DNA of 64,000 nucleotides from the NCBI GenBank assembly GCA_036504215.1, contig DASXVO010000059.1, positions 62,001-126,000 of the forward strand. The letters run 5' to 3'. Every line of letters begins with the position of its first letter. Within the stretch, counting starts at the first letter, position 1. A program made the translations under genes and the position numbers. Source of the stretch: Vicinamibacterales bacterium. GTDB taxonomy: Bacteria > Acidobacteriota > Vicinamibacteria > Vicinamibacterales > Fen-181. A model generated the notes under the pieces. It was not told the DNA's origin. It saw nothing but the letters and a program-made list of their open reading frames with translations, and searched no databases. This document shows positions 4,469 to 61,185 of this stretch, in pieces.

Positions 4469-4484
4469 ATATTATATACAACAT
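4469..4484 (-). promoter_or_regulatory. putative GntR-type operator, site 1
   Basis: On the minus strand the site reads ATGTTGTATATAATAT, matching the ten-site consensus ATATTGTATATNATAT at 14 of 15 defined positions. It contains TATAAT, usable as a -10 box. It stands out as AT-only sequence in about 65% GC DNA. The gene it would serve is the URO-D/SSS pair on the minus strand, about 330 bases downstream. Confidence 0.55.
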
Positions 4485-4529
4485 GACCAAACCTGAGGCG
4501 TTACGATTTCGTCAGATCGCGCCGCCGGT

Positions 4530-4679
4530 CTACGTGGCCGATCGGTGAGAGGGAATCCGGGCAATGGCGTCGGCCAGCGCGCGCTCGGCGTGCCACAGGT
4601 CGTAGGTCCGCTGGAGACGGAGCCACAGGCCCGGACCGTTGCCACAGAACTTTCCGAGACGAACGTCGCGCGACAAGCG
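4530..4679 (-). pseudogene. HigA/XRE-type antitoxin C-terminal remnant
   Basis: The frame ending at TAG 4530 reads FCGNGPGLWLRLQRTYDLWHAERALADAI, matching the C-terminal helices of HigA-type XRE antitoxins (family pattern RYFGTSPEFWLNLQ-YDL). The helix-turn-helix that should precede it is missing: upstream residues are Cys/Arg-rich and match nothing. It is therefore a truncated antitoxin without its toxin. The HigB-like remnant at 195-458 lies on the same strand, but about 4 kb away and downstream of it, so the two cannot be one simple split operon. Confidence 0.45.
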
Positions 4680-4841
4680 CGTCGCCAGACAAGCGCGTCG
4701 CATGCACACAAAGCGCGCCTGCCTTGACCGCTCGCATGGCCGGTCGCACACTGGTGCGCCCTGTCGCGCGTGACCGGCCCCCGCTGGCGCCGGCGGACGC
4801 ACAGGACAGGATGGTCCTCTCAACTGCAAGGGGTGAAGCCG

Positions 4842-5297
4842 GTGGCCAAGTGGATGCTCGGATGTGCCGCGTTGCTCTTGTGGGGAACCGTGCCGGCTGC
4901 CGCCGCTGGCGGGCAGACGCAAGCGCCCTCGCCCGCCACGGAGAAGCTGGCGCCGCCAGACTACTCGCAGGAAGCAGCCGTCATCGAGCAGGCGCGCACG
5001 ACGATCTCCTTCGACGGGAATGCCACCGGGCGCCGCGACGACGCGATTCGGCTCTACGCGCACGCGGTGACCGCCAAGCGCGTGGTGCCCGAGGCGCCAT
5101 GGCTTCCAGGCCTCGAGCCCGCATCGATCGATCGCACAGAGATCTCACGAACAACACCGAACCGAGAACGCCAATTCGTGTCGTCGCCGACCTTCTCCAT
5201 CCAGTCGAGTGTCCCGCCGTCGAGCGCTTCCTGGATGGCGATCTGCGTCATGGCCGTCGCGTCCTTCGGTCACGCGTTCTTCGTTGCCACACAATGA
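4842..5297 (+). pseudogene. Truncated secreted DUF3857-type protein
   Basis: GTG 4842 follows AAGGGG at 8 bases and opens a signal peptide (about residues 5-24, ending AAAAGGQ). Then comes PPDYSQEAAVIEQARTTISF, the opening strand of the DUF3857 transglutaminase-associated domain (family pattern DYSKEA-VIE---T-I-FE). Homology stops near residue 75 (about 5065), where an intact member would continue for 500 or more residues. The rest of the frame to 5297 overlaps an unrelated cupin tail on the other strand. It looks like the 5' stub of a deleted gene. ATG 4854 is an alternative start. Confidence 0.5.
5160..5251 (-). pseudogene. C-terminal fragment of a cupin-domain protein
   Basis: The minus-strand frame reads [24 protein letters not shown]. 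This matches the last strand and tail of small cupins of the mandelonitrile-lyase/carboxymuconolactone-decarboxylase-associated type, which end MTHIAIQE-LDGK-VDWMEKVSDEQY. There is no upstream cupin core: a stop lies just before it in frame. The fragment sits downstream of an aldo/keto reductase on the same strand, a common partner of such cupins. Confidence 0.4.
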
Positions 5298-5372
5298 AGC
5301 CCACCCGTTCGCACAACCGCGGGTTCGCGAACTCGGTCACAGGCTCCGCCGCCCTCGCCTCGCGCTTCCCGA

Positions 5373-6368
5373 TCAGCGGCCGGTCAGTTGCTCCAGTTGC
5401 TCGGGGTACCGAGCCCCGTGAACCGTTATCTCCGAGGCGGCGCGGTCGATCTCCCGAAGATCGTCGGACGTCAACTCGAGCGCCGCGGCCCCGATGTTCT
5501 CCTCGAGCCGATGCAGCTTCGTGGTGCCCGGGATGGGAACGATCCACGGCTTCTGGGCGAGCAGCCACGCGAGCGCGATCTCGGCCGGTGTCGCCTGCTT
5601 CCGTGCGCCGATCGTGCCCAGCAGATCGATCAACGCCTGATTGGCCTTCCGCGCCTCCGGCGTGAATCGAGGAAGGCTGGCGCGGAAGTCGGTGCTGTCG
5701 AACGTCGTGTGCTCGTCGATCTTCCCCGTGAGGAAGCCCCTCCCGAGCGGGCTGTAGGGCACGAAGCCGACACCGAGCTCTTCGAGCGTCGGCAGCACGT
5801 CCGCTTCGGGACCGCGCGTCCACAGCGAGTACTCGCTCTGCAACGCCGTGACCGGCTGGACGGCGTGCGCGCGACGTATCGTCTGCACCCCCGCCTCGGA
5901 AAGGCCGAAGTGCTTCACCTTCCCTTCCCGAATCAGGTCCTGCACCGCACCAGCGACATCCTCGATCGGCACGTTCGGGTCGACGCGGTGCTGATAGAGG
6001 AGGTCGATCGCTTCGACCCCGAGCCGCCTGAGCGAGCCCTCGGCGGCCTGCTTGATGTGCCCGGGCCGGCTGTCGAGGCCCACCCACTTCGGGCCGCCGT
6101 TCGGATCGAGCTCGAACCCGAACTTGGTCGCAATCACCACCTGCCCTCGAAACGGCGCGAGCGCTTCGCCGACGAGTGCTTCGTTGTTGAACGGACCGTA
6201 GACTTCCGCGGTATCGAAGAACGTTACGCCGCGGTCGACGGCCGATCGCAGCAGCGAGACCATCTCCTGCCGGTCCGGAGCCGGACCGTAGGAAAAGGTC
6301 ATGCCCATGCAGCCGAGTCCGAGCGCGGACACTTCCAGGTTGCTCCTGCCAAGCTTGCGTTTCTGCAT
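5373..6368 (-). CDS. Aldo/keto reductase
   Basis: A 331-residue NADPH-dependent oxidoreductase of the AKR superfamily (the branch of YajO/plant auxin-induced-like enzymes), cytoplasmic. The catalytic tetrad is visible: Asp52 and Tyr57 in FFDTAEVYG, Lys82 in IATKFGF, and His127 in LLYQHRVDP. The C-terminal cofactor-binding motif [15 protein letters not shown] is also present. ATG 6368 ([23 protein letters not shown]) gives the standard N-terminus and follows GGAGG/GAA sequence; an ATG 18 bases upstream is possible. The family reduces aldehydes and ketones; the substrate is not predictable. It is a single gene, divergent from the TonB receptor at 6744. Confidence 0.93.
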
Positions 6369-59680: not shown

Positions 59681-59742
59681 CGCCCGCGGCCGAACGCGCG
59701 GAGTCGGGCCGGCACATTCCTCCCGGCGAGACGAACAAAAAA

Positions 59743-59758
59743 ATATGATATATCATGT
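59743..59758 (+). promoter_or_regulatory. putative GntR-type operator, site 9
   Basis: ATATGATATATCATGT differs from the perfect palindrome of site 3 at one base. It lies 86 bases before the YVTN propeller start (59829) and 133 bases from the divergent enolase-superfamily gene, so with site 8 it may control both directions. TATGAT is a possible -10. Confidence 0.65.
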
Positions 59759-59828
59759 TGGCGTGAGCGGAGCGCCCAGCCGGTCTCACACGAATCCCGT
59801 GACGATGAACAACCAGGTGGAGATCAAC

Positions 59829-60881
59829 ATGATGCGTCGTACTGCGATCGCGACCGTGGCGGCCCTGATTCTGACGATGTCCATCGGAGCCCCGAGGAGC
59901 GCTGCCGCCGCCGCCCCCCCTCCGGCGGACTTCCACATCATCAAAACGATTACGACTCTCGCCGTGATCGACTACATCACGATCGACCCGCAGGGGCGCA
60001 GGGCCTACGTCGGTCGGGGCCACGCCGTGTCGGTCTTCGACATCGACCAGGGCAAGTTCGTCGGCGAAGTCGTGGATGTGCCGCGCGCCCACGGCGTCGC
60101 GTTCGCGCCGGGCGGTAGCGAGGGATTCGCCACCGCCGGCAGCACCAACGAGGTCGTGGTCTTCGACCTCAAGACCCTCAAGGTGACGCGCCGGATCAAG
60201 GCCGGCCTGAAGCCGGACGCGATCATCTACGAGCCCGCCTCCAAGAAGATCTACGTGTTCAACAGCAACGGCGGAACCGTGTCGATCATCGACCCGGCCT
60301 CCCCGGCCACGCCGCTCGTCACCGTCGAGGTCGGCGGGACGCTCGAGGGCGCCGTGTCGGACGGCGCGGGCCGCGTGTACGTGAATGCGATGGAAAGAAA
60401 CGACGTCGCCGTCATCGACACCGCCCAGGCGAAGACCATCGCCCGTTGGCCGGTCGGGCCGGGAACCGCGCCCATCGCCATGGCCATCGACACCGAGCAC
60501 CATCGCCTGTTCGTGGGCTGCGAGAACAAGAAACTCATCATCCTGAGCACGGATGACGGCAAGGTCCTCGGCGAGGCGCCGATCGGTGGTGGCTGCGATG
60601 GCCTCGTCTTCGACCCACAGACAGGCCTCGTCTTCTCGGCCAACGGCCTCGACGGCACGCTGACGGTCCTGCGCGAAGGCCCAGGGGGCAAGTTCGCTCC
60701 GGTGCAGACGCTCCCGACGGCCAAGATGGCCCGGACGATCGCGATGGATCCGAAAACCCGCAACCTCTACCTGCCGACCATGATTCCCGCGCAGATCGAA
60801 TTCGGGTCCTTCGGTCTCCTGGTTGTGGGAACCGAGCCCCACGGCGCGGCGAAATCCCCCGCCCCGGCAGCGGCCAGATAG
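59829..60881 (+). CDS. Secreted YVTN-family beta-propeller protein (regulon copy)
   Basis: A 350-residue secreted protein. Signal peptide about 3-27 (RRTAIATVAALILTMSIGAPRSAAA). Six or seven YVTN blades: YITIDPQGRRAYVGRGHAVSVFDID, VAFAPGGSEGFATAGSTNEVVVFDLKT, AIIYEPASKKIYVFNSNGGTVSIIDP, VSDGAGRVYVNAMERNDVAVIDTAQ, AIDTEHHRLFVGCENKKLIILSTD, LVFDPQTGLVFSANGLDGTLTVL. It could bind a substrate or partner in the periplasm. ATG 59829 was chosen because GGTGGAGATC precedes it; ATG 59805 is possible. It follows operator site 9. Confidence 0.85.
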   Translation: MMRRTAIATVAALILTMSIGAPRSAAAAAPPPADFHIIKTITTLAVIDYITIDPQGRRAYVGRGHAVSVFDIDQGKFVGEVVDVPRAHGVAFAPGGSEGFATAGSTNEVVVFDLKTLKVTRRIKAGLKPDAIIYEPASKKIYVFNSNGGTVSIIDPASPATPLVTVEVGGTLEGAVSDGAGRVYVNAMERNDVAVIDTAQAKTIARWPVGPGTAPIAMAIDTEHHRLFVGCENKKLIILSTDDGKVLGEAPIGGGCDGLVFDPQTGLVFSANGLDGTLTVLREGPGGKFAPVQTLPTAKMARTIAMDPKTRNLYLPTMIPAQIEFGSFGLLVVGTEPHGAAKSPAPAAAR

Positions 60882-60897
60882 GTCGGACCGGCCGGGC

Positions 60898-61182
60898 ATG
60901 ACGGACATCGCACACGTCCGCAGGAATCAGGAAACGCCGATCGTGGCAGGGGGAACGCACGCGTTTCTGCGGTGGCTCCCATGGCGGGTGCTCCTGCCCG
61001 TCGCCGTGGGCGTCGGCGTGGCGCTCGTGCCCGCGCCGTCCGGTCTCACCCTGTCGGCCTGGCGCTATTTCGCGCTGTTCGCCGCGGTGGCGGTCGGCCT
61101 CGTGGTCGAGCCGGTGCCCGCCGCGGGCGTCGGCTTCATCGGCATGGCGGCCGCGGTCCGGTTGACAGCATATGATATATAA
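60898..61182 (+). pseudogene. DASS/SLC13 anion:sodium symporter N-terminal fragment
   Basis: 95 codons from ATG 60898, 17 bp after the propeller stop. The reading WLPWRVLLPVAVGVGVALVPAPSGLTLSAWRYFALFAAVAVGLVVEPVPAAGVGFIGMAAAV gives the first two helices of divalent-anion:Na+ symporters (dicarboxylate/tricarboxylate carriers of the CitT type). The family runs to about 470 residues. The frame ends exactly inside operator site 10 (LTAYDI-stop). It looks like the stub of a carrier whose body was lost when the downstream promoter and gene came to lie here. Confidence 0.65.
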
Positions 61183-61185
61183 TCT
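61170..61185 (+). promoter_or_regulatory. putative GntR-type operator, site 10
   Basis: ATATGATATATAATCT matches site 3 at 14 of 16 positions and contains TATAAT (61178-61183). It lies 101 bases before enolase-superfamily gene C (61286). TTGACA at 61162-61167 is only 10 bases before TATAAT, too close to be its -35. Confidence 0.6.

Follow-up and report, generated by a model that had tools for sequence, protein, structure and literature searches.

The window analyzed here, a 64,000-nucleotide stretch of the soil-type genome of a Vicinamibacterales bacterium (GCA_036504215.1), carries ten copies of a 16-bp AT-rich palindrome. This palindrome is most probably the operator of the GntR/FCD-type protein encoded at 46087-46791, which would repress its target genes as well as its own gene and be released by a metabolite; we put the probability of this reading at about 0.88. 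The window corresponds to bases 62001-126000 of contig C59 (328,764 bases) in an assembly of 5.92 Mb and 90 contigs, and its GC content is 66.4%. A preliminary description of the same DNA had linked palindrome and regulator by position only, and the link is now supported by comparison of the sites in related genomes. Computation shows the sites themselves, how rare they are, that they are intergenic and occur together with the FCD gene, and where the -35 boxes lie.

All ten sequences of the preliminary description are present, and the palindrome takes the refined form G-N-ATATNRTATAYNATAT-N-C. When up to three mismatches are allowed, ATATNRTATAYNATAT has 10 matches in the window, against 0.16 on average and 3 at most in shuffled sequence, which bears out the earlier view that chance recurrence is very unlikely. 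Among these matches, the one at 50161 overlaps the site at 50168, and the site at 59643 was detected by matrix only. In a pattern scan of the whole genome, 11 places match with at most one mismatch, while the reversed pattern used as a control gives 0. Seven of them are in the window (4469, 32702, 44214, 52263, 54788, 59743, and 61170), three in contig C43 (489, 5900, and 6391), and one in contig C33 (31573). The binomial probability of at least 7 of 11 falling within 64 kb is about 5e-12, for a window chosen for its cluster. With two mismatches the genome gives 14 matches versus 6 in the control, and weak single matches elsewhere are therefore untrustworthy. We also built a symmetric position matrix from the ten window sites, from which all scores below are taken. 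Besides the strong matches, it scores 50168 (23.9), 46033 (17.3), 59643 (14.2), and two overlapping places, C59:127114/127121; across 78 kb taken from elsewhere in the genome, nothing scores 20 or more, and four places reach 13.

Eight of the ten sites are strong, and 46033 and 59643 are weak. The site at 44214, described before as a perfect palindrome, is the sole one; pairing of the half-sites falls to 4/8 positions at 46033 and 3/8 at 59643. TATA at positions 7-10 is kept by all ten sites, as had been claimed, but the T at position 4 is kept by only eight, 46033 and 59643 having C. The half-sites have ATAT arms and an RTATAY core, with G in 25 and A in 39 of 64 half-sites at the conserved position. 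Half-sites beside the main site have been reported for other GntR operators; here, those 7 bp from the main site are not significant (p = 0.058 for their mean score and p = 0.74 for the count of strong ones). With genes called by codon usage, 23 of the 24 sites scoring at least 20 in the window and related contigs are intergenic, on contigs that are 73-97% coding. The same holds for nine of the ten window sites; the tenth, 61170, overlaps a truncated DASS-transporter gene at its end, in agreement with the preliminary description. An Rfam search of the window for RNA elements in the long 5' regions gave no match.

The genome contains eight FCD genes, so the mere presence of one in the window is weak evidence of ownership. 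We therefore rely on a comparison of 193 genomes of the class. Using a threshold of E<=1e-35, FCD orthologues were found in 5 of them. Two or more sites with at most one mismatch occur in 3 of the 193 genomes, all among the five bearing the FCD gene (Fisher p = 8.5e-6): 11 sites in this genome, 4 in G004, and 6 in G085. None of the 188 genomes lacking the gene has two, each having at most one. Site clusters thus occur only in genomes with an FCD orthologue (3/5 versus 0/188). G085 is a member of another family of the order, and its six sites all share one 79-kb contig with the FCD gene (chance, about 4e-12). A separate sequence, ATATTGCATACGATAT, was found once each in L052, L054, and L060 of the FCD-lacking genomes G067, G069, and G147; possibly a related regulator uses it as its operator.

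The preliminary description had also placed a site in the promoter of the FCD gene itself. This site is weak, and it is kept in all five orthologues (scores of 17.3, 19.4, 13.6, 16.0, and 21.6), while the promoters of the genome's remaining seven FCD genes lack a site (best score, 10.7). The class-V aminotransferase-like gene has an upstream site in all six of its copies in FCD-bearing genomes, at -61 in the window, -58 in C33, -66 and -75 in G004, about -73 in G002, and -232 and -414 in G085; the sole copy in a genome lacking the FCD gene has none. TonB-receptor copies in the window, C43, and G085:C219 have sites scoring 27-31. No site above 9 was found for receptor homologues at ten loci with upstream DNA in FCD-lacking genomes, at one locus in G021, or for the paralogue on G085 C111. 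Aligned orthologue promoters show no general conservation outside the site; the site positions were taken from the matrix because the aligner misplaces the site in several rows. Taken together, the co-occurrence, the own-promoter sites, and the target families that carry the site only beside the FCD gene support ownership of the motif by the 46087 protein, which appears settled as far as sequence can settle it.

The regulator has 234 amino acids and matches Pfam GntR (PF00392, 1.7e-14) and FCD (PF07729, 1.5e-25), both above the curated cut-offs. Its orthologues share 75, 74, 71, and 60% identity with it, and the recognition helix VSRTPLREA is invariant across the five proteins. So are H151, H195, and H217, which align with the metal ligands of Ps5454 (3c7j), known to be H148, H192, and H214 of its FCD domain (PMC7674646). 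As these three conserved histidines match the Ps5454 ligands, a metal-bound carboxylate is the likely effector. At E<=1e-40, no relative was found outside the class in 396 genomes of the phylum, this genome excepted. G004:C219 also contains a truncated second FCD copy, limited to residues 148-234, at L066:11125-11445 between operator-bearing target genes. Another FCD gene, in L029 (G000:C59, about 279 kb), has upstream a more canonical GTATAC-type site, GTAGTGTATACCGAAT, which is possibly its own operator.

The position of the sites relative to promoter elements suggests how the regulator would act. A perfect TTGACA box precedes the site and faces the gene in 6 of 48 orientations, compared with 0.4% of random intergenic places (p = 5e-8). 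Five of the six boxes lie 13-14 bp before the site and the sixth 8 bp; for those five, the -10 element falls within the palindrome, with a spacing of some 15-16. Since the site lies over the -10 element, repression by occlusion is the simplest reading. We propose that a dimer of the FCD protein would bind a 16- to 20-bp palindrome overlapping the -10 element of target promoters and that the bound protein would repress these promoters, its own included. When the substrate is available, the repressor would be released by a small metabolite, probably a carboxylate held at the FCD domain's metal site. The targets would form one catabolic regulon by which peptides, amino acids, and sugar acids are taken up (TonB receptor, symporter, MFS, and lactate permease) and broken down. 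Binding and repression are predictions throughout, as are the kinds of effector and substrate.

Several observations weigh against this model of an FCD repressor. A -35 box was seen for only about a fifth of the site orientations. Some sites lie far from the start codon (327-366 bp), and there the start codon or the target may have been wrongly assigned. The site of the FCD gene itself is among the two or three weakest in the window. G021 and G002 show only weak or few sites, on short contigs, and one of the genomes in the count is the one from which the motif was derived. The regulon also varies in its genes from genome to genome, which leaves substrate and effector not pinned down.

The palindrome could instead be the operator of a different transcription factor that was inherited together with the cluster and for which the FCD gene is just one target. 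Such coinheritance would likewise produce the co-occurrence of motif and FCD gene, and the weak window site of that gene (17.3) fits it. We nevertheless regard this as very improbable, because the site is present in all five FCD promoters, the form of the motif matches the consensus of the FadR subfamily, and in blastp searches the FCD protein is the sole regulator that the window shares with the cluster contigs of G004, G085, G002, and G021. The other regulator of the window, an extracytoplasmic function (ECF) sigma factor at 15506, has a blastp match only on C59 of the same genome. That the palindrome is a chance product of AT-rich -10 regions, or a mobile-element sequence, has almost nothing left to recommend it beyond the AT-richness of the sites and the overlap of some with -10 elements. 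The counts in the window (10 versus 0.16 expected) and the genome (11 versus 0), together with the limit of one site in each of the 188 FCD-lacking relatives, speak against it, and the site flanks have no common sequence except the G-N and N-C adjoining the motif. For practical purposes, the genome-wide counts refute it.

The FCD protein could also own the sites and mainly activate, or activate some promoters and repress others. There is precedent in the FCD protein CitO of Enterococcus faecalis, an activator (PMC4746285), and the geometry is undecided wherever no -35 box is seen. The sites with a recognizable -35 box cover the -10 element, which suits occlusion, and we consider activation unlikely, if less so than a different owner of the sites. 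Repression by the FCD protein is the reading we keep.

The preliminary description had likened the core to operators of FCD-type GntR proteins, and the RTATAY core does agree with the published consensus of the FadR subfamily, NyGTM-N0-1-KACNy (PMC4494728), provided that the G is relaxed. Judged from its sequence, the 46087 regulator fits the FCD subfamily (for example, DgoR, LldR, UxuR, NanR, and McbR) on every testable feature: a winged helix and an FCD domain with three conserved, putatively metal-binding histidines, a palindromic operator with a core of the canonical GTATAC type (GT and AC separated by 2 bp), sites in its own promoter as well as in divergent ones, and putative targets in organic-acid and amino-acid metabolism. 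It differs in that the operator is longer and almost purely A/T, with ATAT arms and A commoner than G at the conserved GT, and in that the regulon is large for a local regulator, with a gene set unlike that of any named member. No named member fits. Every NCBIfam model tried (PhnR, NanR, LldR, CsiR, ExuR, PdhR, UxuR, and GlcC) was far below its cut-off. The best, PhnR (TIGR03338), reached 100.7 bits against a cut-off of 271.5, and no phosphonate genes turned up among the targets; the protein is therefore not PhnR. In Escherichia coli, the FCD protein DgoR (PDB 7c7e) represses an operon for sugar-acid catabolism, and there the inverted repeats overlap the promoter (PMC7674646). The sites described here appear to overlap promoters in the same way, whereas their targets are only partly of the sugar-acid type, and the metal residues of DgoR are D146, H150, and H195, while the 46087 protein keeps the three-histidine form of Ps5454 and TM0439.

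Table 1. Proposed operators, regulator gene, and putative target genes in the window (scores are matrix scores)
Position	Strand	Feature	Remarks
1459..4190	-	Putative targets: URO-D/MtaA-like protein (3132-4190) and SSF sodium:solute symporter (1459-3087)	Pfam, NCBIfam
4469..4484	.	Operator ATATTATATACAACAT	Score 28.2; distances 287 and 356 bp; target uncertain
32702..32717	.	Operator ATATTGTATATTATAT	Score 30.7; TTGACA 14 bp before its start
33037..44134	+	Putative target operon of 8 open reading frames (ORFs)	Gaps 4-153 bp; Pfam
44214..44229	.	Operator ATATGATATATCATAT, perfect palindrome	Score 30.2
44329..45834	+	Putative target: alpha/beta hydrolase with TAP-like C-terminal domain, distantly prolyl-aminopeptidase-like	Homology
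46033..46048	.	Weak operator ATACCGTATACAACCT before FCD gene, predicted autoregulatory	Score 17.3
46087..46791	+	GntR/FCD regulator gene, 234 amino acids, likely owner of the motif	Pfam, orthologues
46834..49839	-	Putative target: Sortilin/VPS10-like BNR-repeat protein	Pfam
50168..50183	.	Operator ATATCATATATAATCG	Score 23.9
50472..52208	-	Putative target: LctP-family lactate permease	Pfam 3.3e-186
52263..52278	.	Operator AGATTATATATTATAT, divergent promoter	Score 30.0
52324..54752	+	Putative targets: class-V aminotransferase-fold pyridoxal phosphate (PLP) enzyme (52324-53646), then BD-FAE esterase (53823-54752)	Pfam, NCBIfam
54788..54803	.	Operator ATATTGTATATTATGT	Score 27.9
55162..58175	+	Putative target operon: gamma-glutamyltranspeptidase-family protein and MFS transporter	Pfam; gap 29 bp
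58438..59562	-	Putative target: enolase-superfamily (MR/MLE) enzyme	Pfam
59643..59658	.	Weak site GCTCAGTATACAATAT, one good half only	Score 14.2
59743..59758	.	Operator ATATGATATATCATGT, divergent promoter	Score 27.4
59799..61182	+	Putative targets: beta-propeller-like protein (59799-60881) and truncated DASS transporter remnant (60898-61182)	Pfam
61170..61185	.	Operator ATATGATATATAATCT, end of DASS remnant	Score 29.4
61286..63778	+	Putative targets: sugar-acid-dehydratase-like MR/MLE enzyme (61286-62554) and protein with sub-threshold DUF3054 match (62660-63778)	Profile matches

The sites and their putative targets are listed in Table 1. The site at 4469 lies upstream of the URO-D-like and symporter genes on the minus strand or of a weak ORF on the plus strand. 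The operon at 33037..44134 encodes a TonB-dependent receptor, a YncE-like propeller, an Asparaginase_2-family peptidase, an MFS transporter, a small ORF, a 531-amino-acid protein, and a rhamnosidase in two pieces. This GH78-type rhamnosidase (41540-44134) is split by an in-frame TAG at 42110-42112, with both halves in one frame, and is either a pseudogene or the product of a sequencing error. The 531-amino-acid protein (39874-41469) has no Pfam, NCBIfam, or PDB match; a 62% identical paralogue at L017:9279-10826 likewise lies in a regulon stretch, and a distant relative is found in the G085 cluster. By sequence, it is an unknown family travelling with the regulon. A homologue of the hydrolase at 44329..45834 in G004:C219 has an operator (22.2) 62 bp upstream. 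The VPS10-like protein is encoded on the FCD contig in three genomes, this one, G085 (56% identity), and G021 (77%, fragment). The DASS-type (Na_sulph_symp) remnant, which has the strong operator at its end, keeps profile positions 5-67 of 472.

The preliminary description had envisaged a local control unit of about 12 genes. The local regulon stands, but its extent does not, as it continues at C59:127114-127136, C43:489-6391, and C33:31573. The site at 127 kb of C59 precedes a YncE-like propeller, and on C43 the genes behind the sites encode an aspartase-like lyase, another TonB receptor, which is broken, and a glutaminase-A-like protein. The broken receptor paralogue (L017:2722-5468) consists of two overlapping frames and still has two operators upstream. 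On C33, the site sits between a second divergent pair of lactate permease and aminotransferase-like genes, as at 52263, and the two C33 products are 79% and 81% identical to their window counterparts.

Among the targets in this genome are the receptor, transporters, gamma-glutamyltranspeptidase- and asparaginase-family hydrolases, the prolyl-aminopeptidase-like hydrolase, and the aspartase-like lyase, along with the PLP enzyme, sugar-acid-dehydratase-like enzymes, and lactate permease. The G085 cluster contains M28, M14, and S9 peptidases, amidohydrolases, a beta-lactamase-fold hydrolase, two aminotransferases, a cysteine-synthase-like enzyme, and a TonB receptor, and in G004 an M28 peptidase, an amidohydrolase, and a GH116 glycosidase lie beside sites. 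There is an even chance that what these gene sets have in common is taking up and hydrolysing peptides and related amides, to which this genome adds sugar acids. The FCD protein is 72% identical to that of the other family, compared with 74-75% within the genus, and the aminotransferase-like protein 79% compared with 79-80%. We tentatively suggest, as something possible rather than probable, that conservation lies in the operator and not in gene order, a rare and patchy FCD repressor and its operator having spread jointly between distant Acidobacteriota families while different uptake and peptidase genes were captured in each lineage. If true, this would be a transferable, shuffled regulon for scavenging organic nitrogen.

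In the open-licence literature that we searched, we found no paper tying a GntR regulon to this group. The mechanism of gene control is itself ordinary and of a known kind; what is new, as read from the genomes, is an FCD regulator with a distinct AT-rich operator and a regulon whose content shifts between lineages. Regulators of uncultured Acidobacteriota are seldom tied to their binding sites, and here regulator, operator, and targets could be joined from sequence alone, with controls. The predicted set of regulator, operator, and targets offers a testable handle on what these bacteria take up.

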